This document shows, in pieces, positions 27,044 to 40,246 of a stretch of DNA of 64,000 bases. The stretch is from Fibrobacter sp. UWT2. GTDB lineage: Bacteria > Fibrobacterota > Fibrobacteria > Fibrobacterales > Fibrobacteraceae. The translations under genes were made by a program, and so were the position numbers. Within the stretch, counting starts at the first letter, position 1. Each line of letters opens with the position of its first letter. The DNA lies in NCBI RefSeq assembly GCF_900142545.1, contig NZ_FRBF01000002.1:62001-126000 (forward strand). The letters are read 5' to 3'. The notes beneath the pieces are model-generated. The model was not told the origin of the DNA. It did not search any database and saw only the letters and a list, made by a program, of their open reading frames with translations.

Positions 27044-28153
27044 ATGAGTTCTAAAAAAGCACCGTCCAAAGCAGCCAAGGCTCCGGCAAAGAAACCCGCA
27101 GCTAAGCCTGCAAAGAAGACAGCTCCTGCCAAACCCGCAGCCAAGGCTCCTGCAAAGGCAAAGCCCGCTGCCAAGCCTGCAAAGAAGGCTGCCCCGGCAA
27201 AGCCCGCCAAGGCTCCGGCAAAGAAGCCTGCCGCTAAGCCCGCAAAACCGGCCGCCAAGGCTCCGGTTAAGGCAAAGCCCGCTGCTGCTCCGAAGGCAAA
27301 GGACTCTAAGAAACCTGCCGCTAAGCCCGCTGCAAAGCCGGTCGCAAAGCAGGCTCCGAAGGCTGCCGCCAAGCCCGTTGTTAAGGCTGCTCCGAAGGCC
27401 GCTCCGGCAAAGCCCGCTAAGGCTGCTCCGGCTGCCAAGGCTGAACCGAAGGCTGCCAAGCAGGCTCCCAAGGTTGCCGCTAAGCCCGAACCGAAGGCTG
27501 CTAAGAAACCCGCCGAAAAGTCTGTTGCCGTGAAGGCCGAAAAGGTTGAAAAGGTGGCAAAGCCCGCCAAGGTCGAAGCTAAGCCTGTGGAAGTTGCCGA
27601 ACCGGTTGATACTTCGGCCACCGACAACAAACCCTCCAAGAAACCGGGTCCTGACTACGCCTACGCCGTGCTCCTGCAGGGTGTGAAGCGTCTTTCGAAG
27701 ACCATCATGTTCGTGAAGGTCGACGAATCTGAAGACCGTTCCAACAAGAAGAAGATGTCCAGCGATGTCAAGAACCTTGACATGAAGCCGACCTCTGCAA
27801 TCCGCCACAAGTCGTCCCTTGCCGAAGAAACGCAGGAAGAACTGACGGAACGCATCCTTAAGGAACTCGAAGAACAGAACAAGATGTTCGAACGCGAAGC
27901 CGCCACGCAGATGTGCACGCGCTGCAACCGCAACCTCGTGTCTCCGGAATTCTGGGTCGACAAGCACCTCGGCTTCTGCGAAGAATGCGCCGCCATCCTC
28001 AAGCTCGGTCAGTCCAAGGAAGCCCGCAAGGTGGAATACCAGCTCGGTGCCATGGACGGCGACTCCCTGGATGAAGAAGATGACGATATTATCGGACCGG
28101 ACGCAGACGACCTGAAGGAAGCTGAAGAAGATCTCGCCGAAATGGAAGATTAA
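27044..28153 (+). CDS. histone H1-like Lys/Ala/Pro-rich protein with DksA/TraR-type zinc finger
   Basis: 369 aa. Residues 1-205 are low-complexity K/A/P (AKKPAAKPAKKTAPAK-type units), like bacterial histone H1-like proteins. Residues 215-280 have mixed composition with FVKVDESEDRSNKKKM. Residues 285-330 hold a zinc finger C-x2-C-x17-C-x2-C (CTRCNRNLV...GFCEEC), the spacing of DksA. The C-terminus is very acidic (DEEDDDIIGPDADD). DksA-family proteins bind RNA polymerase; the basic tail could bind DNA or RNA. It lacks the family's usual long coiled coil with an acidic tip, so a DksA-like role is not assured. It is co-transcribed with an exported cyclophilin, but has no signal peptide itself. 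Confidence 0.8.
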   Translation: MSSKKAPSKAAKAPAKKPAAKPAKKTAPAKPAAKAPAKAKPAAKPAKKAAPAKPAKAPAKKPAAKPAKPAAKAPVKAKPAAAPKAKDSKKPAAKPAAKPVAKQAPKAAAKPVVKAAPKAAPAKPAKAAPAAKAEPKAAKQAPKVAAKPEPKAAKKPAEKSVAVKAEKVEKVAKPAKVEAKPVEVAEPVDTSATDNKPSKKPGPDYAYAVLLQGVKRLSKTIMFVKVDESEDRSNKKKMSSDVKNLDMKPTSAIRHKSSLAEETQEELTERILKELEEQNKMFEREAATQMCTRCNRNLVSPEFWVDKHLGFCEECAAILKLGQSKEARKVEYQLGAMDGDSLDEEDDDIIGPDADDLKEAEEDLAEMED

Positions 28154-28272: not shown

Positions 28273-28923
28273 TTAGTTCACCTTGCGCATGACGCCGATG
28301 AGCTTGCCAGCGATGGAGAAGTGCTTGTCCTTCTTGACAATGATCGGGCGGTAACGCGGGTTGGCCGGACGCAGTTCGATATGGTCTGCGGCAGGGTGGT
28401 AATACTTGACGGTTGCTTCGTTGTCGACCTGGGCCACGATGATTTCGCCACGGTCGGCAGTCTTCTGCTGGCGAGCGAAAATCAAGTCACCGTCGAGAAT
28501 GCCGGCGTTGATCATGGAGTCGCCCTTGACGCGGAGCGCAAAGACATCGGAACGGCAAGCGAGGAAGTCGCGGTCGATGGTGACGGTGCCTTCGAGGTTC
28601 TGCACGGCGAGAATCGGCGTACCGGCAGCGACGCGGCCCACGATAGGAATTTCAATGGTATTTGCCGGTGCTTCCGAAGCTTCAGAATTGCCGCTGTCGA
28701 CCACTTCGATGCCGCGGCTGAGTCTGGGGGAGCGGTTGATATAGCCCTTCTTGATGAGGGCGGCGAGAATGGAACGGACGCCGTTCGTCGAAGAAATCTC
28801 GAAATGGTTGCCGATTTCGCGGACCGTAGGCGGCATGCGATTTTCCTTGGAATACTTCTTGATGTATTCCAGGATCTCTTCTTGACGGGTGGTTAGCTCC
28901 TTGCGTTTGCTGTTGTTTTCCAT
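28273..28923 (-). CDS. lexA: LexA repressor
   Basis: 216 aa from ATG 28923, preceded by GAGG with a 7-base gap; a longer open frame runs through the promoter and is not used. Winged-helix domain: [20 protein letters not shown], then [19 protein letters not shown]. Self-cleavage site Ala100-Gly101 in GRVAAGTPI; catalytic Ser136 in KGDSMINAG and Lys173 in EATVKYY. It represses SOS genes and autocleaves with RecA. The promoter contains a LexA site, so it is autoregulated. Confidence 0.97.
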
Positions 28924-28956
28924 GTATAAACCTCGCTTTAATAAATTACATACACA

Positions 28957-28985: not shown

Positions 28986-29122
28986 TAGGTTCACTGCACA
29001 AAATTTCATTATTTTACAAGACTCCGTCAAGCTTTTTCGTACAAAAAGCCCTTTCGAACAAAAAAAATTATATATTTTCCCCAAAAAGTCATTTTTCTTT
29101 AATGAAGTTCAGGGGGGCTTTC

Positions 29123-30892
29123 ATGAAAAATACACTTAAATACTTTTTGGGGGTAATTCTCCTATTTTCTGTTTGCGCATGGAGCAAAGCATCTGATATC
29201 CTCATCGTCGTTGACGACGAAATGATAAAAGACAACGAAATCAAGAATGCCATAGACACCTATACAGATGACATTTGGAATACTTATCAAGTAAACGCCA
29301 CTATCGTGTCTTTCAAATCCCAGAAGAATGGCGGGAAAGCCACCGACCTAAAAGAAATACTCGTAAGCAAGAAGGATTCCATTATGGGAGCCATCTTTGT
29401 TGGAGACATTCCGCGAGCTCAATTTGAATTCTACCAGAAAACTCAAGAAGGATTCCGGTACCAGCGCTGGGTAACAGACCTTTACTTCATGGACCTTGAC
29501 GGTGTTTGGAAAGACACTGCTGCCGGAGGCCCCGAAGCCTATGGCGGAAAGTTGTTTGAAACCACCACGACAACATTAAACTTTGATGTACGCGATGGTT
29601 CTCCGATACCAGGGAAAGTACCGGCGGATAGTTTTTCAATTGCATATTCCGGATACATCAAATCTCCAGTCACCGCACTTTGTTCCCTGCAACTTACCAC
29701 GGACAACGACAGGCGCCTTTGGATTAACGATTCCCTGCTCATTGACGCATGGTTCAACAACTGGGACATTCCCTATTACAGCGCTTTTCAATTCAAGAAA
29801 GACAGTCTCTACAAATTCAAACTAAACTATGCAGAGGAATATGGCACCGCTTATCTTACACTAAAATGGAAATGCGGGAATAATGCCTCCTATGAACCAA
29901 TCCCTGATTCCGTTTGGCGTCAAAATGACAAGAGCACACGCGGTCTCAACCAAACCTATTACGGAAATATTTTCATGAAAGATTCGCTCCCAGAGGAAGA
30001 CATAAAGCACCTTTGGATTTCTGGAAAATCCAATGGAGTTTTTGACGGGCACTATTCCAAAAGTGGCGCAGTTTCTGATTCCTTTGAAATATGGGTTTCT
30101 CGAATTGACCCCAACACGGCAGGTTTCTACGGTAACCCAAAAACACTTTTATTGAACTATTTCGAGAAAATCCACAACTACTATCTCGGTTTGTTCAAGA
30201 AAGCTACGCGTAGTGCCATGTTCCTAACTGAGGAAGGAGGCCTAAACAATCCTCTAGACCAGAAATTCGTTGATGGTTTGAGCCTTCTTTATTCCCCAGA
30301 CTCCCTTGATAAGTCCATCGCTGACGGGCAGGAATATCTAGACAACATTAAATCAGACAAGTATGATTGGGCCCTTTACGGTGGGCACGGAGGCCAGACT
30401 GGCCTTGGAAACGGGCTGGATATAACACGAGTGGAAAGAAACATGTGCGTGTCACCGAGATTCTTCCACTTTGCCTGCTGTGGTCCACTTACCTGCTATG
30501 ATTTCTACGGCAACGCCAATAGTGCCTCTGTTGGAAGCGAGCATATCTTTAACACGATTAACGGCGGTTTTGTAAGTATCGGTTCGTCCAAAACCAGTGG
30601 AAGCGACCAAATGGATGGTTTCATGTATTACGCCTTTGAGCACAAATTCATTGGCGAATCGTTCCGGGAATGGGTAAACGAAAGGGTAAAAAGGAACCAG
30701 TACAGTAACAAGGAAGACCTTTACGATTGGTTCTATGGAGAATCGATTATCGGAGATCCGATGCAAAAACTGGCAGTGCCAGAACAAACAACGACTCGCA
30801 TCCATAAAGTCAAAGCACAACGGATGCCACAAAAAAACGGCAAGCTGTACGACCTTTTGGGAAGAATCAAAGGCTTTTTAAACATCCAGTAA
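29123..30892 (+). CDS. secreted caspase/gingipain-like (C25-type) cysteine peptidase with PA14 domain
   Basis: 589 aa from ATG 29123 (GGGGGG Shine-Dalgarno site), with signal peptide MKNTLKYFLGVILLFSVCAWS. Residues 25-130 begin an α/β peptidase fold (DILIVVDDEMIKDNE, then IMGAIFVGDIPRA). A PA14-like β-barrel (about 139-265; CSLQLTTDNDRRLWINDSLL) is inserted. The fold then resumes to a presumed dyad of His422 in YGGHGGQTG and Cys452/Cys453 in HFACCGP, as in clan CD peptidases. PA14 usually binds carbohydrate. The C-terminus (GKLYDLLGRIKGFLNIQ) resembles a type IX secretion sorting tail. The neighbour downstream is a 40-aa peptide gene. The peptidase assignment rests on motif pattern, not on alignment. 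Confidence 0.7.
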   Translation: MKNTLKYFLGVILLFSVCAWSKASDILIVVDDEMIKDNEIKNAIDTYTDDIWNTYQVNATIVSFKSQKNGGKATDLKEILVSKKDSIMGAIFVGDIPRAQFEFYQKTQEGFRYQRWVTDLYFMDLDGVWKDTAAGGPEAYGGKLFETTTTTLNFDVRDGSPIPGKVPADSFSIAYSGYIKSPVTALCSLQLTTDNDRRLWINDSLLIDAWFNNWDIPYYSAFQFKKDSLYKFKLNYAEEYGTAYLTLKWKCGNNASYEPIPDSVWRQNDKSTRGLNQTYYGNIFMKDSLPEEDIKHLWISGKSNGVFDGHYSKSGAVSDSFEIWVSRIDPNTAGFYGNPKTLLLNYFEKIHNYYLGLFKKATRSAMFLTEEGGLNNPLDQKFVDGLSLLYSPDSLDKSIADGQEYLDNIKSDKYDWALYGGHGGQTGLGNGLDITRVERNMCVSPRFFHFACCGPLTCYDFYGNANSASVGSEHIFNTINGGFVSIGSSKTSGSDQMDGFMYYAFEHKFIGESFREWVNERVKRNQYSNKEDLYDWFYGESIIGDPMQKLAVPEQTTTRIHKVKAQRMPQKNGKLYDLLGRIKGFLNIQ

Positions 30893-30909
30893 TCAATACT
30901 GGAGGCCGA

Positions 30910-30938
30910 TTGACGTTTGTGGTGTGATTTTTTATTTT
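30910..30938 (+). promoter_or_regulatory. possible promoter of the 40-aa peptide gene
   Basis: TTGACG (30910-30915) and TATTTT (30933-30938) are 17 bases apart. The predicted start of transcription falls at or next to the ATG at 30945. This would give a leaderless mRNA, which fits the missing Shine-Dalgarno site. Confidence 0.4.
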
Positions 30939-30944
30939 ATTTAT

Positions 30945-31067
30945 ATGGAAGAAAAAAAAGAATACACCGCTCCGAAGATGAACGTATACGAACTGGATTC
31001 ACAAGCTGTTCTTTTACAGCCTACTCAACCGGATGCGGGCGAGATTTCCAATACCGAATTCGATTAA
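30945..31067 (+). CDS. YxAP-family small peptide 1 (40 aa)
   Basis: A 40-codon frame: it starts MEEKKEYTAPKMNVYELD, has LL at 23-24 and ends in NTEFD. It shares with two small frames downstream of the giant CUB gene the ungapped motif KK[ES]YxAPxM[NED]V-x8-LL and an acidic C-terminus; peptide 3 also ends in EFD. No signal peptide. It lies between the cysteine peptidase gene and a strong terminator, with its own possible promoter. Conservation of three frames across unrelated flanks is the evidence that it is translated. It resembles short Y-x-x-P...LL proteins seen in Bacteroidota, whose function I do not know. Confidence 0.75.
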   Translation: MEEKKEYTAPKMNVYELDSQAVLLQPTQPDAGEISNTEFD

Positions 31068-31410: not shown

Positions 31411-34400
31411 ATGAAAAAGAATTTTCATGTGTTTTTCGTATTTGCCCTGCTAGCGCTTTTGGCTGCTCCGTCGGCTGCGTATACATACAAGAACATTTAC
31501 CTTTCTAGCAATGGAGAAACTGTCGTTTTGCCTTGCGACGGTACAGCTGATATCTCTGCTTCTGATATTGTGAGGAACTTTGTCATATATGATGATGGTG
31601 GTGCTAGCGGAAACTACAGCAATAACTGTAGGGGAGTTGCTCTAATTACCGCCCCTAAGGGGTATGGAATCAAGGCTTGGGGATGGATGAAGGCGGAATC
31701 CGCAGATTCCCTTCATATTAAGGATGATCGTTACAATACATATATGATTGCAAAATTTAATGGCACAGGGGTAAATTCGCAACGGGATTTTGGTCCGTAT
31801 TACTCGACTTGCGACGGGATGAATATTTCGTTTATTACAGATGGTAGTGTTGTTGGTCCTGGATTTGAACTGCATGTGGAATTTGTGCCTTTGCGTACGG
31901 TTAGTGCAAATTCGGATCAAATATGGCTCTATAGCCCATATAAATGGGGTTATTATATAACTGAGACGTGGGGATTGACGGGGTCGGGTGTGGATGCAAC
32001 TTACTCAGAAGGGATGACGGCTTCGTTTAGTTTCAATCCTAATTATAATGAAGAGCGTGTGTGGGGAGTAAAGTTGAGAAAAAAAGATGGGTCGGGCATC
32101 GTTGGATACCGGAAAAATGAGCGTAATGGTAGGTATGAGTTCGTAATGCCTTCGAGCGATGTTGGAGTTGTAACGAAACTAGATTGGGATAGTGCAGGTT
32201 ATAATATGTTTAATGATGAAAAATCGTTATTCCTGTATGGAACAAGGAAAATCAAGCTTTATGATGAAGGGGGTCCAGAAGATGATTATGCCAGTAGTTT
32301 TGATGGATGGCTAAAATTATCTACGCCCGAAGGTTTTTATTTCCAGGTAACCGGAACGGTTGAAACGGAACCGTCATCTTATGGTGGTTATGATTATTTA
32401 GAGATTTATGATGGGGAGGTGTCAAAGGGAACTTCTGCTACACCGAAATGCAAAGTGTATACACAAGGAAATAAAGCTGGAAAGGTTAATGTTCCCTCTA
32501 ATTGTGTAAGTACTGCTGAATATATGACGATTCATTTCCGTACTGATGGCTCCATTACCGCACCTGGCTTGGATTTGACGGTATCGTCTTTGTATAGAAC
32601 TTATTCTGTTAATGTCAAACAGACTTCAAATGGAAGCATCTCTAGCGATGCGTATTCTAGTCAAAAAGGTTCTAAGGTCACATTGACGGTCAAACCCAAT
32701 AGTGGTTATGTGTTAAAGGGTGTCGAAGTCGTGAATAAAACAACGGGTTTTTCCTATACTTATGGTAGTTATCAATCGAATACAGTGACATTTTCGATGC
32801 CTGCATCTGATGTAGATGTAACTCCGACTTTTGTGAAAGACACTTATAGCATCACGAAGAAATCTGCGACTGGAGGGTCTGTTACGGGACCTATTTCCGC
32901 AAAGGTTGGCTCAACTGTTGCAATGACGACAAGTACTACGAATGGATATCTATACAGTGGTGCTTCTGTTAAGGTAGATGGAAGTAGTGTGAGCGTTTTT
33001 GGCGAAAAGGGCTTTTTGGACGGAAAATTTAGCTTTACGATGCCGATTGGCGATGTGACCGTGACTCCTTCGTTTACCAACGATTGGAGTGCCGAGGGCG
33101 GCCTCTTCATCAATATGACCAAGGCGAAAAATGTTACCGCGGAGATTCCGTCAGGTGTCAAATCCTTCAAGGTTTATGACGATGGTGGCAAGTATGGGGA
33201 TTATGGCCGCAGCAACAGAGACACCCTCGTGCTTTATGTCCCGACAGGCCATGTCCTGCAGTTGTCGGGAAGTATGAATATAAATTCGTCTTCTGACTCT
33301 TTGCTCGTCTATAATGGATCAAGGGCTAACGCCTACAGTCTTCTTGGAACATACAAGGGCTCTATAGAAAATGTCCTGAGCACCAGCAACTACATGACTC
33401 TCGTGTTCCATTCAGGTACCTCCTATTATAAGGGACTTGACCTGACGGTAAAAGTTCTTTCCGTAGTCAACCAGATTACCTACAAGAACAATAATTCCGG
33501 TGGCTCCGTGACGTCGGATGCGCCTACGACAGCAAGGAATGGTTACACAGTCAATTACTCCTATTCCTATAACAGTGGCTACATGGTAAGCGATATAAAG
33601 GCAGTCGATGCCGATGGCAAAAATGTAACGGTTACCGGCGGCTGGTATAATAACAATAAAGCATCCTTCAAGATGCCTCTGTCCGCGGTGACGGTTACCT
33701 CTTCCTACACGAACAACTGGAGTGCCGAGGGCGACCTCTACATCAACATGCCCAAGGCGAGCAAGGTTACCGCGACGATTCCGTCTGGAGTCAAGTCCTT
33801 CAAGGTTTATGACGATGGCGGCAAATCCGAGAGCTATAGCGGCAGCAACAGGGATACCCTCGTGCTTAATGCCCCGGCAGGCTATGTCCTGCAGTTGTCG
33901 GGAACCAAGAAAACAGCTTCATCTAATGACTCTTTGCTCGTCTATAACGGATCAGGGGCTAATGCCAATAGCCTTCTTGAAACATACAAGAGTTATAATG
34001 AACAAACAATAAGCAATGTCGTGAGCACTGGCAGCGCCATGACTCTCGTGTTCCATACAGGATACTCCCGTGATTACGGCCTCAACCTGACGGTTAAAGT
34101 CATTCCCATAGTCCACCAGATTACTTACACGAACAGGAACTCCGGCGGTTCAGTAACTTCGGATGCGCCAAAGACGGGAACGAGAGATGCCTTCGTCAAT
34201 TTCTCCTATTCCTATAATAGTGGCTACCTGGTAAAAGAGATAAAGGCGGTCACTGCAGATGGTGACAGCGTAGCGGTTACCGGCGGCTGGTATAATGAAA
34301 AGAATGCGTCTTTCAAGATGCCTCTGGCTGCGGTGACGGTCACCTCGACCTATACGGATGACTTGACCGACGAGGGCGGTCTCTATATCAACATGCGTAA

Positions 34401-37400
34401 GAGTAGCAGGTTTACCGCAACGATTCCTGAAGGTGTCAAATCCTTCAAGGTTTATGACGATGGCGGCAACTCTGGGAACTATAGCGGCTACAACAGGGAC
34501 ACCCTCGTGCTTAAGGCCCCGGATGGCTACGTCCTGCGATTGTCGGGAAGCAAGAAAACGAATTCGTCTAGTGACTCATTGCTCGTCTATAACGGATCAG
34601 GGGCTAATGCCAATAGCCTTCTTAAAACATACAAGAGTTCATATGAACAAACTATAAGTAACGACCTGAGTAGTGGCAACTACATGACTCTCGTGTTCCA
34701 TTCAGGATACTCCAATTATTACGGCCTTGATTTGACGGTTAAAGTCATTTCTGCAGTCAATCAGATTACCTACACGAACAAGAATTCCGGCGGTTCCGTT
34801 ACATCGGATGCACCAAAGTCGGGAAAGAAAGATTCCATTGTCAGTTTCTCCTATTCCTATAATAGTGGTTATATGGTAAAAGAAATAAAGGCTGTCTCAG
34901 CAGACGGTGACAGCGTAATAGTTACCGGCGGGTGGTATAATGACAAGAAAGCGTCCTTCAAAATGCCTTTGTCTGCAGTGACGGTCACTTCGTCTTATAC
35001 TGATGACTTGAGCGCCGAAGGCGGTCTTTATGTCAATATGCGTAAGACGAGCAAGTTTACCGCGACGATTCCTGAAGGTGTCAATTCGTTCAAGGTTTAT
35101 GACGATGGCGGCAACTCTGGGAACTATAGCGGCAGCAACAGGGACACTCTCGTGCTTAAGGCTCCGGATGGCTACGTCCTGCGATTGTCGGGAAACAAGA
35201 AAACAGCTTCGTCTTATGACTCATTGCTCGTCTATAACGGATCAGGGGCTAATGCCAATAGTCTTCTTAAAACATACAAGAGTTCATATGAACAAACTAT
35301 AGGTAACGACCTGAGCAGTGGTAGCTACATGACTCTCGTGTTCCATTCTGGATCCTCCCGTGATTACGGCCTCAACCTGACGGTTCAAGTCATTTCTGCA
35401 GTCAATCAGATTACCTACACGAACAAGAATTCTGGCGGTTCCGTGACTTCGGGGGCCCCTACGACAGGGAAGGACGGTTCCACAGTCAATTACACCTATT
35501 CCTATGACAGCGGCTACATGGTAAGTGACATCACTGCAGTCGATGCCGATGGCAAAAATGTAACGGTTACTGGCGGCTGGTATAATAACAAGAGAGCGTT
35601 CTTCAAGATGCCTCTGTCTGCGGTGACGATCACCTCGTCCTATACGGATATTTGGAGCGCCGATGGCGGCCTTTACATCAACATGCTCAAGGCTAGTAAG
35701 GTTGTCGCGACGATTCCAAAAGGAGTCGAATCGTTCAAGGTTTATGACGACGGCGGCATTTCCGGGAACTATAGCGGCAACAACAGGGACACTCTCGTGC
35801 TTAAGGCTCCGGATGGCTACGTCCTGCAGTTGACGGGAACCAAAAAAACAGCTTCGTCTTATGACTCATTGCTCGTCTATAACGGATCAGGGACTAATGC
35901 CAATAGTCTTCTTAAAACATACAAGAGTTCATATGAACAAACAATAAGCAATGTCCTGAGCAGTGGCAACTACATGACTCTCGTGTTCCATTCAGGCTCC
36001 TCCCGTGATTACGGCCTCGACCTTAAGGTGACGCTTATACTTGTGGACTATGCCATTCAAGTTAATAGTGCAACAAATGGAAAGGTGTCTGCATCTAAAA
36101 CAACAGAACTCCATTTTGGTGATACGGTTTCTTTGACTGCGTCTGCTAATACTGGGTATATGCTAAAAGACGTTGTTGCCAAAGATTCGGCTGGCAATGC
36201 CGTTAAAGTCACGCAGTATTCGTTTGACGTTTCTGAGTTAATCATGCCGGCAAAGAATTTGGTTGTTACTCCGACATTTACGAATAACTTTACCGCAGCA
36301 GGCGGCTTACATCTCGATATGCGGAGGAATGCGAATGTCAAAGCGAATATTCCTTCTGGAGTTAAGTCGTTAAAGGTCTATGATAACGGCGGCAAGGATG
36401 GTGTTTATGAGGCGAGTAGTAATGACACCTTGACACTCACGGCTCCTGAAGGATACCGAATTAAATTGACGGGTAATGTTAAGACAGAAAAAGGTTGGGA
36501 TTACTTCTACGTCTTTGATGGAGAGAATGCTAGCGCTAATAATTTGTTGACGATTGCTGGCCCGGCAACCTATAATTCTCATGATAAAGATACCAGTCTT
36601 ACGGCGATATATAGCACTGGCAATCATATGACGCTCTGCTTTAAGGCTGATGGAATTTATCAATTCGAAGGCCTTGACCTTACCGTAACGCTCGAAAAGA
36701 TTAATTATACGATTACTCGTAATTCTGTTACTGGTGGAACTGTAAATGGCAAGGATGCCGATACGCTTGGTGCAGTTGTTTACCTTACTGGTTCTCCAAC
36801 AGGCTCCTATCATTTGAGCAATGTGACTGTCGTGGACGAAGGCGGAAACATCATCAAGTCGCCTATTTACTTGTTCGACCGTTCAAAATTTACTATGCCT
36901 GCAAGTAATGTGACAGTGACGCCAACATGGACGGATAACCTTACTGCAGAAGGCGGACTCCATCTTGATCTATTGAAGAACGAAAAAATTAACGAGGATA
37001 TCCCGGCTGGGGTCAAATCCTTCAATTTGTATGATAATGGTGGCGCAGGCGGTAATTATGCAAGTAATAGCAGAGATACTTTGACGCTTAATGCACCTAC
37101 GGGATTCTACCTGGTTGTGACAGGTTCTGTTACATTAGAAAAGGGCTGCGATTCTCTTTACATCTTCGATGGTGTTAATACCTCTGCTGCTCAGCTGTTT
37201 GGCTCAACAAGTGCATCAACGGGTAGTAAAACTGATATTGGAACCATTACCAGTTCTGGCCGTAGCCTCACATTCCGATTCAAGTCGGATGTTTCGAAAG
37301 AGTATTCTGGTCTTAACTTGAAGGTCTCTGTTGAACCGATTACCTACGTTATTGCGATTGCCGATGCTGCAAATGGTCGTGTTTCGAGTAGCGTAAAGAA

Positions 37401-39504
37401 GGCGGCCAAGGATTCAATTGTCAATCTGTCTTGGGTCTATACGACGGGTTATTTGATCAGGGATATTGATGTCAAGGATGCTTCCGAAAACAAGATTGTT
37501 GTCAATGGCGGCTGGTATTCGGGTGCCAAGGCAAGCTTTACAATGCCTGAAAGTCCTGTCATTGTTACCCCGACCTTTACGAATAACTTGACTGCCGAAG
37601 GCGATAATGGCCTCTACATCAATATGCCGAAGACCGGAATGGTCAATGCGACTATCCCGAATAAGGTGACTTCGTTCAAGGTGTATGATGACGGCGGTGC
37701 ATCGGGTCTTTACAGCAATGGTTGTAATGGGACGCTTGTGCTTAATGCTCCAGAAGGCTACATGTTGCAGCTAAGTGGAAGTGTTACTGTCGAAAATCCG
37801 GGTTCTTCGGGTACAATCTATGATTACTTGATTGTCTATGACGGCGCCGATAATTCCGCGACCAAGTTGGTTGACAAGAAAACGGGGTCGGCGACAATCT
37901 CAGCTGTTCGTAGCTCGGGCCGTAATTTGACCTTGTTCTTCCATTCTGACGGAAGTAACGTGAGAGATGGCCTCGACTTGACGGTGACACTTGTTCCTGT
38001 GGATTATACGGTCACGGTGGCGACTGTTACGGGTGGGTCCATGACGAGTGACAAGGAATCTGCGGTTATGGATGGCGTGGTGACATTGACGGCGGTGCCG
38101 AAAGATGGCTACCTGATTGACGGTGTTGAAGTCAAGGATGCCAATAATAATGTTGTCGCCTTGAATAATGACATTTATTGGTATTGCGGTACTAATAAGG
38201 TCTCTTTCAAAATGCCAAGTGCATCTGTTACGGTCACCCCGAAATTTTCTCCGATTAACGCGCTGTACGTGAATATGCCGAAGAAAAGTGGAGTGGGTTG
38301 TGATGTTCATATTCCAGAAAATGTAACCTCCTTTAAAATTTACGATGATGGTGGTGAAGCTGGTAACTACAGTAACAACGTCAATGGCGAACTTTGGGTG
38401 GTGTTTGATGAAAAGTCTGGTAATGCAGGTCTAAAATTATCAGGGACAGTCTCAGCACCGAAGGATGGAGCTCACTTGTATGCTACCGCTGTGACTGATG
38501 ACGCTATGGAATTGTTCTACACCAATAATGGTTCCTCAGATGGTCTTGCCGAGGATATTGGTACGTTTATTAATTCCTCGTCATTAATAATTGAATTCCG
38601 TACAGGCAATGTTGGTAGCGGTGCCGGTCTTGATTTGAAAGTTGATGTTGTCAAATCTCCGGGTGCCGGCGTAAAAGTTGTTTATGACGACGCTCATGTG
38701 ATTGGTGATGGAAAACTCAGTAGATGGGCTTCGATAACGGATGGCGACAAGACATCGGAACTCAATATCCCCGAAGATGTTGCGGTTGACACAATCACGC
38801 TCTCTCGCAATTTTAAAACGAATAACGTGTATAATACAATTCTTTTCCCGTTTGATGTAAAGGCAGATAGTCTTGACGGAGTTGTAAAGGTGCTTCGTTT
38901 CAACGGCTTCAAGCAGAAAGAAGATGAATCTTGGGTTGTTCGCATGAAACGAGTCTGGACGAAGGATTCTATTGGTCGCGATATTGATGTCAATGCTAAT
39001 ACGCCCTACTTGGTCGTGATGGATGATCCCAAAATGGTTGTCCGTGGTGGCGTGACACTGAGAAAGACTGTTGAACCCATCGCGATGGCCGAAGACTGTA
39101 ACTGGAAATTCATTGGAACGCTTTCTTATCAGGAATGGCCCGAAGGAAATCCTCTTGTCTATGGATTTAGTAACAATCAGTTTGTGAAGGCTGGTACGAA
39201 TGTGAGGGTTGGCGCATTGCGTGCATACTTGCTGAAGCCCAAGCCGAAGCTGGCTAGCGAAAGACCGAGCCTGAATGGCTCTGCGCACGCCTACGAGTAC
39301 ATTGCCCCGGTGTATATTCCTGACGAATTCGATATCGTTGAAGACGATGACGAAAATGGCGAGAATACCACCGTTATCGGGCGCTACAACACGCGTACAG
39401 GCGAATTCAGGATGCTGCCCAGCTATGACATCAAGGGTCGCAAGCTGAACGGCAAGCCCAACGTACACAAAGCTTATTATGGTAAAAAAATTATAAGGAA
39501 ATAG
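31411..39504 (+). CDS. giant secreted protein of 11 CUB-like domains alternating with InlB-B-like repeats
   Basis: 2697 aa with signal peptide (MKKNFHVFFVFALLALLAAP). I count 11 CUB-like domains, each opening with (F/I/L)K(V/I/L)YD(D/N/E)GG and containing DTLVLxAPxGYxLQLSG, DSLLVYNG and MTLVFHSG. They alternate with about 80-100-residue β modules (SGGSVTSDAP...SYSYNSGYMV...ASFKMPLSAVTVT) like divergent InlB B-repeats. Residues about 561-1546 are five near-identical units of 211-215 aa. The C-terminal part (about 2430-2697) is different and ends MLPSYDIKGRKLNGKPN...YYGKKIIRK, resembling a type IX secretion sorting domain. It is probably a surface adhesin or carbohydrate-binding scaffold. Two peptide genes follow within 200 bases, co-directional. 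Confidence 0.88.
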   Translation: MKKNFHVFFVFALLALLAAPSAAYTYKNIYLSSNGETVVLPCDGTADISASDIVRNFVIYDDGGASGNYSNNCRGVALITAPKGYGIKAWGWMKAESADSLHIKDDRYNTYMIAKFNGTGVNSQRDFGPYYSTCDGMNISFITDGSVVGPGFELHVEFVPLRTVSANSDQIWLYSPYKWGYYITETWGLTGSGVDATYSEGMTASFSFNPNYNEERVWGVKLRKKDGSGIVGYRKNERNGRYEFVMPSSDVGVVTKLDWDSAGYNMFNDEKSLFLYGTRKIKLYDEGGPEDDYASSFDGWLKLSTPEGFYFQVTGTVETEPSSYGGYDYLEIYDGEVSKGTSATPKCKVYTQGNKAGKVNVPSNCVSTAEYMTIHFRTDGSITAPGLDLTVSSLYRTYSVNVKQTSNGSISSDAYSSQKGSKVTLTVKPNSGYVLKGVEVVNKTTGFSYTYGSYQSNTVTFSMPASDVDVTPTFVKDTYSITKKSATGGSVTGPISAKVGSTVAMTTSTTNGYLYSGASVKVDGSSVSVFGEKGFLDGKFSFTMPIGDVTVTPSFTNDWSAEGGLFINMTKAKNVTAEIPSGVKSFKVYDDGGKYGDYGRSNRDTLVLYVPTGHVLQLSGSMNINSSSDSLLVYNGSRANAYSLLGTYKGSIENVLSTSNYMTLVFHSGTSYYKGLDLTVKVLSVVNQITYKNNNSGGSVTSDAPTTARNGYTVNYSYSYNSGYMVSDIKAVDADGKNVTVTGGWYNNNKASFKMPLSAVTVTSSYTNNWSAEGDLYINMPKASKVTATIPSGVKSFKVYDDGGKSESYSGSNRDTLVLNAPAGYVLQLSGTKKTASSNDSLLVYNGSGANANSLLETYKSYNEQTISNVVSTGSAMTLVFHTGYSRDYGLNLTVKVIPIVHQITYTNRNSGGSVTSDAPKTGTRDAFVNFSYSYNSGYLVKEIKAVTADGDSVAVTGGWYNEKNASFKMPLAAVTVTSTYTDDLTDEGGLYINMRKSSRFTATIPEGVKSFKVYDDGGNSGNYSGYNRDTLVLKAPDGYVLRLSGSKKTNSSSDSLLVYNGSGANANSLLKTYKSSYEQTISNDLSSGNYMTLVFHSGYSNYYGLDLTVKVISAVNQITYTNKNSGGSVTSDAPKSGKKDSIVSFSYSYNSGYMVKEIKAVSADGDSVIVTGGWYNDKKASFKMPLSAVTVTSSYTDDLSAEGGLYVNMRKTSKFTATIPEGVNSFKVYDDGGNSGNYSGSNRDTLVLKAPDGYVLRLSGNKKTASSYDSLLVYNGSGANANSLLKTYKSSYEQTIGNDLSSGSYMTLVFHSGSSRDYGLNLTVQVISAVNQITYTNKNSGGSVTSGAPTTGKDGSTVNYTYSYDSGYMVSDITAVDADGKNVTVTGGWYNNKRAFFKMPLSAVTITSSYTDIWSADGGLYINMLKASKVVATIPKGVESFKVYDDGGISGNYSGNNRDTLVLKAPDGYVLQLTGTKKTASSYDSLLVYNGSGTNANSLLKTYKSSYEQTISNVLSSGNYMTLVFHSGSSRDYGLDLKVTLILVDYAIQVNSATNGKVSASKTTELHFGDTVSLTASANTGYMLKDVVAKDSAGNAVKVTQYSFDVSELIMPAKNLVVTPTFTNNFTAAGGLHLDMRRNANVKANIPSGVKSLKVYDNGGKDGVYEASSNDTLTLTAPEGYRIKLTGNVKTEKGWDYFYVFDGENASANNLLTIAGPATYNSHDKDTSLTAIYSTGNHMTLCFKADGIYQFEGLDLTVTLEKINYTITRNSVTGGTVNGKDADTLGAVVYLTGSPTGSYHLSNVTVVDEGGNIIKSPIYLFDRSKFTMPASNVTVTPTWTDNLTAEGGLHLDLLKNEKINEDIPAGVKSFNLYDNGGAGGNYASNSRDTLTLNAPTGFYLVVTGSVTLEKGCDSLYIFDGVNTSAAQLFGSTSASTGSKTDIGTITSSGRSLTFRFKSDVSKEYSGLNLKVSVEPITYVIAIADAANGRVSSSVKKAAKDSIVNLSWVYTTGYLIRDIDVKDASENKIVVNGGWYSGAKASFTMPESPVIVTPTFTNNLTAEGDNGLYINMPKTGMVNATIPNKVTSFKVYDDGGASGLYSNGCNGTLVLNAPEGYMLQLSGSVTVENPGSSGTIYDYLIVYDGADNSATKLVDKKTGSATISAVRSSGRNLTLFFHSDGSNVRDGLDLTVTLVPVDYTVTVATVTGGSMTSDKESAVMDGVVTLTAVPKDGYLIDGVEVKDANNNVVALNNDIYWYCGTNKVSFKMPSASVTVTPKFSPINALYVNMPKKSGVGCDVHIPENVTSFKIYDDGGEAGNYSNNVNGELWVVFDEKSGNAGLKLSGTVSAPKDGAHLYATAVTDDAMELFYTNNGSSDGLAEDIGTFINSSSLIIEFRTGNVGSGAGLDLKVDVVKSPGAGVKVVYDDAHVIGDGKLSRWASITDGDKTSELNIPEDVAVDTITLSRNFKTNNVYNTILFPFDVKADSLDGVVKVLRFNGFKQKEDESWVVRMKRVWTKDSIGRDIDVNANTPYLVVMDDPKMVVRGGVTLRKTVEPIAMAEDCNWKFIGTLSYQEWPEGNPLVYGFSNNQFVKAGTNVRVGALRAYLLKPKPKLASERPSLNGSAHAYEYIAPVYIPDEFDIVEDDDENGENTTVIGRYNTRTGEFRMLPSYDIKGRKLNGKPNVHKAYYGKKIIRK
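33091..36040 (+). repeat. five tandem DNA repeats of 633-645 bp inside the CUB gene
   Basis: Unit starts at 33091, 33724, 34369, 35014 and 35659 (periods 633, 645, 645, 645), the last unit incomplete. Long stretches are identical at DNA level, for example the TATAACGGATCAGGG region. This indicates recent duplication or gene conversion and a site prone to recombination and assembly collapse. Confidence 0.9.
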
Positions 39505-39514
39505 GAAAAATCAA

Positions 39515-39685
39515 ATGAATATTCTAAAAGAAAAACTTTCTGATGTTGCCTCCAAAAAGAGCTATACGGCTCCTACGATGGAGGTGGTTGTAATGGATCA
39601 TCATATGGATTTGCTCAACGGTAGTCCTAATGAACCGTCATCTGGGGAAGACGCCCCGACGGCCATGAGCGTTGAAGAAGAATAA
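39515..39685 (+). CDS. YxAP-family small peptide 2 (56 aa)
   Basis: A 56-codon frame starting 10 bases after the giant gene's stop, with GGA 9 bases before ATG. An N-terminal extension MNILKEKLSDVAS precedes the motif KKSYTAPTMEVVVMDHHMDL, LL at 33-34 and an acidic Ser/Pro-rich tail ending VEEE. It aligns without gaps to peptides 1 and 3. No signal peptide or cysteine. It is probably co-transcribed with the giant CUB gene and peptide 3. Confidence 0.75.
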   Translation: MNILKEKLSDVASKKSYTAPTMEVVVMDHHMDLLNGSPNEPSSGEDAPTAMSVEEE

Positions 39686-39695
39686 AGGATTGATT

Positions 39696-39830
39696 ATGAA
39701 CCAGAAAAAAGAATACGTTGCTCCGGAAATGGATGTGCTTGAATACATGGTTGAAGTGTCTCTTTTGGTAGATAGTCCCAAATCCGATAATGCTGATGCT
39801 GATTCTGCTGATAATATCGAATTCGACTAA
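39696..39830 (+). CDS. YxAP-family small peptide 3 (44 aa)
   Basis: A 44-codon frame 10 bases after peptide 2, with AAAGGA before ATG. It begins MNQKKEYVAPEMDVLEYMVE, has LL at 23-24 and ends DNIEFD, very like peptide 1 (NTEFD). The tail between is strongly acidic. It is last gene of the CUB gene-peptide 2-peptide 3 unit, closed by the terminator at 39856-39886. Confidence 0.75.
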   Translation: MNQKKEYVAPEMDVLEYMVEVSLLVDSPKSDNADADSADNIEFD

Positions 39831-39889: not shown

Positions 39890-40246
39890 TGGAGGTGAGG
39901 GGAGTCGAACCCCTGTCCAAAATCACGTCCATGCACGTTCCTACAAGCTTTCCCTTCGTATTTAAGGTCTCGTCTGATCTACGCCCAAGAAGGTCGGCGC
40001 GGACTTTGACCAGCCTAGTGAATCTCGGACTCTAGCCCCAGGCATGCAAGAATCCTATCCCATATTGCGTCCGGACGTACATCCCGATGGGAGCGGAATG
40101 AGGCCCGGCGTTGCCGTTAATTAGGCAGCGAGTGCGTAGTTTTCGTCAGCACTTATTTTTTTTCAGACTTTTTTACGAGTGCCCTCGTCTGAGACCTCGG
40201 CTTGCAACTAACACTTCGGTAACCCTGTCGAAACCAGAGCACCCCC
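39890..40246 (-). ncRNA. ssrA: tmRNA
   Basis: Transfer-messenger RNA of about 357 nt, which rescues stalled ribosomes and tags their products. The 5' end GGGGGTGCTCTGGTTTCGAC pairs its first seven bases with the 3' CACCTCC (one G-T pair). The T-arm GGACAGGGGTTCGACTCCCC is present. The tag frame (40150-40121 on the minus strand) reads ADENYALAA then TAA. The CCA tail is not encoded (A then GAAC), so it must be added. The discriminator is A at 39890. The gene is single-piece, not permuted. Confidence 0.97.

Follow-up and report, generated by a model that had tools for sequence, protein, structure and literature searches.

A gingipain-like peptidase gene and a putative LPP-like peptide system, probably unrelated, meet at a Fibrobacter locus

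The 64,000-nucleotide stretch of Fibrobacter sp. UWT2 DNA analysed here (contig NZ_FRBF01000002.1; called the window) carries a gene for a gingipain-like peptidase that ends shortly before a small peptide gene. We consider it likely that two unrelated systems touch at this point: a C25 peptidase with a PA14 domain, whose gene roves among Fibrobacter genomes, and dispersed precursors of a RiPP system resembling the linear polyphosphorylated peptides (LPP), with a gene cluster of its own. On this explanation the protease–peptide pair is a coincidence, and recognizing it as such prevents a false lead. Fibrobacter, whose members are major degraders of cellulose in the rumen, would then produce precursor peptide families along with its surface proteins, with one apparent modification-and-export cluster to serve them.

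A gingipain-like peptidase with a PA14 insert

The peptidase gene (29123..30892, + strand) encodes a 589-residue protein assigned to the C25 (gingipain) family by alignment, an AlphaFold2 model and a fold search. The Pfam match to Peptidase_C25 (PF01364; E 8e-4) reaches 19.2 bits against a gathering threshold of 23, with the domain split by an insert. A sequence-only search of the PDB with the peptidase-family profile (A2) returned no gingipain and one antibody chain, a chance match; sequence similarity to the gingipains lies near the limit of detection. The AlphaFold2 model (mean pLDDT 79.9, pTM 0.77) aligns to gingipain RgpB over residues 24–554 (4ief; VIA Z 29.3, 303 residues aligned), a C25 fold interrupted by the insert, and it also matches a second RgpB structure (1cvr; VIA Z 29.1) and Kgp (Z 27.7). 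A preliminary description of this DNA had proposed a secreted clan-CD-like peptidase split by PA14, and the alignments, the model and the fold search bear this out.

The candidate catalytic residues lie at the ends of two modelled strands, His422 (30386..30388, +) after strand 414–420 and Cys453 (30479..30481, +) after strand 447–451, which is the layout of clan CD. His422 sits in a YGGHGG motif and Cys453 in FACCG, and both are invariant in all 14 rows of one alignment and all 55 rows of a larger one. The adjacent Cys452, which had been put forward as an alternative nucleophile position together with Cys453, is substituted among relatives, leaving His422 and Cys453 as the conserved pair. Given the matching fold, this predicted dyad would be the equivalent of the gingipain catalytic pair.

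The N terminus is hydrophobic and forms a helix at residues 2–18 in the model, as expected of the putative Sec signal peptide at about residues 1–23 (29123..29191, +). Since the C25 fold begins at about residue 24, the peptidase lacks an N-terminal prodomain. The enzyme shares with RgpB and Kgp the fold over residues 24–554 (Z 27–29), the order of His before Cys at strand ends and the secretion signal, but differs from them in having no N-terminal prodomain, in carrying PA14 inside the catalytic domain and in ending with a degenerate T9SS tail. As modelled, the protein has the C25 fold, a PA14 domain inserted into it and an intact predicted dyad, but no prodomain; it is most likely an active secreted cysteine endopeptidase that uses His422 and Cys453.

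The PA14 domain (residues 142–272; 29546..29938, +) matches Pfam PF07691 with E 1.5e-12 and 48 bits against a cut-off of 24, and PA14 structure 6qdi with a VIA Z of 15.7. The stretch is missing from five relatives of the same family (rows L023, L024, L025, L028 and L045 of alignment A1) and is therefore a true insert. Its best match in both sequence and structure is the PA14 of RsgI-type anti-sigma factors (6qe7, 6qdi), although the host protein there is an anti-sigma factor and here is a protease. The insert probably holds the peptidase on a glycan, for example in the plant cell wall or a sugar of the cell's own surface.

The C terminus had been described as sorting-like; the final segment (KLYDLLGRIKGFLNIQ; 30842..30889, +) has only the first T9SS-like tail motif and lacks the GxY motif and terminal Lys that characterize the tail family described below. 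It is very unlikely that the enzyme is a PorU-like processing enzyme of the T9SS, or one that matures surface proteins generally across the genus. The C25 fold and a match to PorU itself (6za2; Z 14.1) would fit such a role, but the gingipains are much closer at Z 27–29, and the peptidase is missing from 50 of 67 Fibrobacter genomes whereas tail-bearing cargo occurs in 37 of 41 sampled.

Relatives were found at 78 loci in a scan of GTDB genomes, spanning Fibrobacter metagenome-assembled genomes (MAGs), archaea, Zixiibacteriota and Bacteroidales. Several are decayed: the RGIG1550 orthologue (L055) has in-frame internal stops; the relative in G018 is split, one part containing a stop (L022 with G018 C11); and G059 retains only a C-terminal remnant (L031). 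A relative in a Fibrobacteraceae MAG is about twice as long, at 1110 residues (L056, 4453-7782). The second C25 protein of genome G000 (L045; C5, 247398-248471) has no PA14 and a longer CTD-like C-terminal region, and no peptide gene is found in the 176 bases between it and the contig end.

The peptidase gene occupies unrelated loci

Near-identical peptidase orthologues (86–98% identity) are found at unrelated positions across Fibrobacter genomes. The gene adjoins lexA in the window, where lexA is the divergent upstream neighbour (28273..28926, −; Pfam LexA_DNA_bind and Peptidase_S24) and marks a locus shared with G026, G036 and G038. Judged by gene names assigned by eye, it adjoins ruvAB at L047, L049 and L007 and in the opposite orientation at L053, uvrA at L051, pdxT in G026, and other genes elsewhere; with copies by lexA, ruvA and uvrA, repair genes recur among the neighbours (names partly by eye). 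Control of the peptidase by the SOS response was considered and dropped, as a LexA-box pattern was present only at lexA itself (the window and L046) among 22 loci. On the far side of lexA, window positions 27044-28153 encode a protein whose N-terminal half, about 200 residues rich in Lys, Ala and Pro, precedes an end that by eye is zinc-finger-like and DksA-like.

Few flanks are common to the orthologues: their comparison gave ten pairs with at least 300 bases in common. The conserved unit runs from about 75–95 bases before the start codon to just past the stop (window 29020-30892), and in many genomes it is followed by a terminator-like hairpin (AACCGAAAA...TTTTCGGTT). G026 provides a natural empty site: its locus reads lepA, ppi, dksA, lexA and a short nuclease-like gene, then peptide 1, the gene for the CUB protein (2662 residues) and a further pair of peptides. 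The peptidase is absent from this locus and is encoded on another contig. In G036 the peptidase adjoins lexA in inverted orientation; peptide 3 is kept, and the CUB gene is absent along with peptides 1 and 2. These arrangements point to a single-gene unit that has its own conserved upstream region and has probably moved repeatedly around Fibrobacter genomes, in the window coming to lie between lexA and an older peptide–CUB operon.

A rival proposal makes the unit mainly a passenger on a mobile element whose basis is a dispersed inverted repeat (GGCTCTGTCAAGC/GCTTGACAGAGCC). Within 400 bp of the gene the repeat is present in 6 of 18 upstream flanks and in 7 of 18 downstream ones, compared with 4 of 472 background windows; the motif had been derived from the very flanks that were counted. 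The peptidase is also inverted in place between genomes at both lexA (window and L046) and ruvA (L047, L049, L007 and L053). Against this, many copies have no repeat and no transposase is attached, and we regard the proposal as unlikely, at perhaps one chance in a few.

Peptidase and peptide are not associated across genomes

The peptide gene next to the peptidase (peptide 1; 30945..31067, +) encodes 40 residues and is a predicted RRE-dependent precursor of what we call the YxAP family, with LLQPT in place of the LLxxS of most members. The two open reading frames are separated by 52 bases, as had been reported, and a role of the protease in maturing the peptides or the giant CUB protein had been suggested, with association outside this locus as a test. 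By that test the suggestion is not supported. For 18 near-identical Fibrobacter orthologues the sequence extends downstream of the gene, and loci where it does not were left out; a peptide follows two of the 18, a third has one on the opposite strand, and the eight more distant PA14-type relatives have none behind them. Across 67 Fibrobacter genomes, peptides are present in all 17 with a PA14-type peptidase and in 45 of the 50 without one (Fisher p 0.32, a value that overstates independence because the sampled genomes are kin).

Maturation by the C25 enzyme is accordingly highly improbable. It draws on the adjacency in the window and in the sister genome G038, and on the plausible surface relation of both products. 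However, the order is kept in only 2 of 18 orthologues, G026 has the peptide and CUB genes together with the peptidase elsewhere, and 45 of the 62 peptide-bearing genomes have no PA14-type peptidase, while the same-family genomes G004, G009 and G014 have PA14-type relatives and gave no peptide match. Moreover, the peptidase has a signal peptide and the YxAP peptides have none. For removal of their leader, a better candidate than C25 is the signal-peptidase-like enzyme of their own putative system, encoded with PqqD/RRE elsewhere in the same genome.

Most YxAP peptides follow genes for short-tail surface proteins

Downstream of peptide 1 lies the gene for a giant CUB/InlB-repeat surface protein of 2697 residues (31411..39504, +), which ends in a short T9SS-like tail (39331..39501, +; tail family A4, E 4.4e-23). 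Peptide 2 (39515..39685, +) begins 10 bases after this gene and is followed by a further family member, peptide 3 (39696..39830, +). Directly beyond this operon, on the minus strand, is a tmRNA gene (39890-40246) with the tag ADENYALAA.

The tail is shared among secreted proteins as NTRTGEFxxxxxYDLKGRKLNGKPxxKGxYYxNGKKVIVK, and most rows of family A4 have Y/F-D-x-x-G-R, GxY and a terminal Lys, corresponding to T9SS motifs B, D and E. It gave no match to the Pfam models used, and a single-sequence model of the CUB tail reached a pLDDT of 45. From its motifs it resembles the short T9SS C-terminal domains (CTDs) of Prevotella; those of P. intermedia, as given in the accessible part of PMC11969387, share Y..GR, GxY and terminal basic residues, whereas the Fibrobacter tails are followed by YxAP peptide genes and went unmatched by the Pfam models. 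The tail fits the view, stated in the accessible part of PMC6851124, that Fibrobacter uses a T9SS.

The pairing of tail gene and peptide is frequent from both directions. The genome studied here has ten YxAP peptides, nine of them behind a tail gene, with peptide 1 as the exception that has no tail gene upstream; conversely, one or two peptides stand behind every one of the six strong tail genes. In the genus as a whole, a tail gene precedes 49 of 56 distinct peptides and is missing before the other seven. When Fibrobacter tail genes were picked by the tail alone, 27 of 34 were followed by a peptide, a count from which L238 was left out because its peptide had led to its selection; duplicate peptides and tails were merged, and tail genes with less than 200–250 bases downstream were excluded. 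One of the seven without a peptide, L218, has a truncated peptide remnant; the cluster tail genes L234 and L236 also have none.

The peptides have a conserved leader, KKEYxAPxMxVVxLxxQxxLL, followed by a hypervariable, acidic C terminus, and occur in tandem copies. A Ser at Tyr+20, three residues after LL, is present in 72 of 83 distinct peptides, a set in which the YxxP count holds by construction. Peptide 1 of the window has Thr at this proposed phosphosite and its G026 relative has Ser. Neither NCBIfam nor Pfam has a family for the peptide.

A different role for the peptides would be as small adaptors or chaperones for export of the tail-bearing T9SS cargo, the PqqD cluster co-occurring with them by travelling with a tail gene. 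The gene order is indeed very tight, often with 5–20 bases between cargo and peptide, and G047, G077 and G095 have neither a tail gene nor a peptide, with PqqD kept in G077. Yet a conserved leader, a hypervariable acidic C terminus and tandem copies are precursor-like, the YxxP motif and the gene set match those of LPP, and several tail genes, including the cluster ones L234 and L236, lack a peptide, so we judge an adaptor role improbable, with something like a one-in-six chance.

A candidate maturation cluster

The contig of the window also carries, some 55 kb ahead of it, a cluster that comprises, in order, a tail gene, two peptides, an NTP_transf_5 gene, an HprK-like kinase, an archaeal-type signal peptidase, an RRE protein and an ABC exporter. 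The discrete RRE, NTP_transf_5 and the MsbA-like exporter are thus found together in one cluster. In all of the 32 loci with a related RRE, those cluster genes that lie within the locus keep this order. A tail gene lies by the cluster in all eight wide regions, and seven of the eight also have a peptide there; in G053 the cluster has no peptide and peptides are located elsewhere, which fits modification in trans. The kinase matches HprK-related models with E values of about 2e-4 to 3e-3, below the NCBIfam cut-off, and has its Walker A motif in 27 of 27 sequences where the region is covered. Likewise, the signal peptidase matches TIGR02228 (E 3e-5) below the NCBIfam cut-off, with Ser31, His69 and Asp84 present in 28 of 28 sequences where covered.

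Peptides are found in 62 of the 67 sampled Fibrobacter genomes and a PqqD/RRE gene in 61. The two are both present in 60 genomes, both absent from 4 and discordant in 3 (Fisher p 1e-4, the kinship of the genomes again overstating independence). The discordant cases are G085 and G092 (85% and 65% complete), which have peptides and gave no PqqD match, and G077, which has PqqD and no peptide. G013, the one other peptide-bearing genome in a phylum sample of 150, also has an RRE. The small peptide had been described as a possible precursor, and the leader and variable-core pattern and this co-occurrence with the RRE cluster both argue for that description.

A resemblance to LPP

According to the accessible parts of the 2026 report by Popov et al. 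(PMC13381572), LPP gene sets combine an RRE, an HprK-like kinase, an archaeal-type signal peptidase, an NTP-transferase and an MsbA-like exporter. The kinase phosphorylates Ser3 of the core, a step abolished by an S3T mutation, and the leader is cleaved off by LppS, which resembles SpI and has Ser-His-Asp; the class is described there as restricted to Bacillota. Relative to the LPP features given there, the Fibrobacter system has an apparently matching five-gene set, with the kinase and the signal peptidase as candidate assignments, a YxxP leader and a conserved Ser where the variable core begins, and its Ser three residues past LL is at the position that the LPP analogy predicts. It differs in its phylum (Fibrobacterota rather than Bacillota) and in the dispersal of its precursors behind surface-protein genes. 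The leader consensus of the report, YxxPxVLxHQxIxFETxxS, is retained in YxxP, with a Tyr–Ser spacing of 20 rather than 18 and LL in place of FET. Because the leader departs from this consensus, and two enzyme assignments lie below curated cut-offs, we have not filed the system as LPP, although by analogy it probably works like one.

Lasso peptides offer another comparison, as they too have a discrete RRE and a YxxP-type leader, a motif typical of RRE-dependent RiPPs. In contrast, no macrolactam-synthetase-like gene or B2 peptidase was evident by eye beside the Fibrobacter cluster in the open reading frame lists of L250–L253 (four of the eight regions).

Most likely, the YxAP peptides are RRE-dependent precursors of the LPP type. 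The leader KKEYxAPxMxVVxLxxQxxLL would then be bound by the single PqqD/RRE protein, the HprK-like kinase would modify the conserved Ser three residues past LL, the archaeal-type signal peptidase rather than the C25 enzyme would cut the leader, and the MsbA-like ABC transporter would export the acidic core. Peptide 1, with Thr at this position, may be a poor substrate, given the effect of S3T in LPP. Since most precursors stand directly behind genes for short-T9SS-tail surface proteins, each peptide and its surface protein are probably made together. We tentatively propose that one central LPP-like line serves these scattered precursors, each co-transcribed with such a protein, and that the phosphorylated peptide could act with that protein at the surface, for instance as its partner, its ligand or part of an anchor; we hold this to be somewhat short of an even chance.

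If the proposal holds, LPP-like RiPP biosynthesis would extend beyond Bacillota to Fibrobacter, and a modified-peptide pathway would be coupled to the cargo of type IX secretion. Because the accessible parts of PMC13381572 call LPP restricted to Bacillota, a Fibrobacter system with dispersed, cargo-linked precursors would be a new variant, and it would offer a first tangible hint of what LPP-type peptides do, namely act with secreted proteins at the surface. The peptide-modification system proposed here, with its tie to cell-surface proteins, is apparently undescribed: the open-licence PMC literature on T9SS together with RRE/RiPP, on Fibrobacter RiPPs or lasso peptides, on LPP, on C25 with PA14 and on YxxP leaders gave no account of such a pairing. 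Among the RiPP entries in the accessible part of PMC4289311, none is for the single Fibrobacteres genome included there.

Occurrence outside Fibrobacter

No peptide match came from 11 of the 12 other-genome entries searched, which leaves G164 and G013 as the basis for a spread beyond Fibrobacter. At the three Bacteroidaceae peptide loci (L237–L239), no cluster genes lie within the flanks of about 1.5 kb, where present. At one of these, L238 (about 1464-1686) in a rumen MAG from another phylum (Bacteroidaceae; the genome of L089), the tail YYDLSGRRVNGQPAEAGIYIVNGQKVMIK is followed after 32 bases by a weakly matching YxxP peptide, a sequence arrangement that suggests that the pairing of tail and peptide is wider than the genus.
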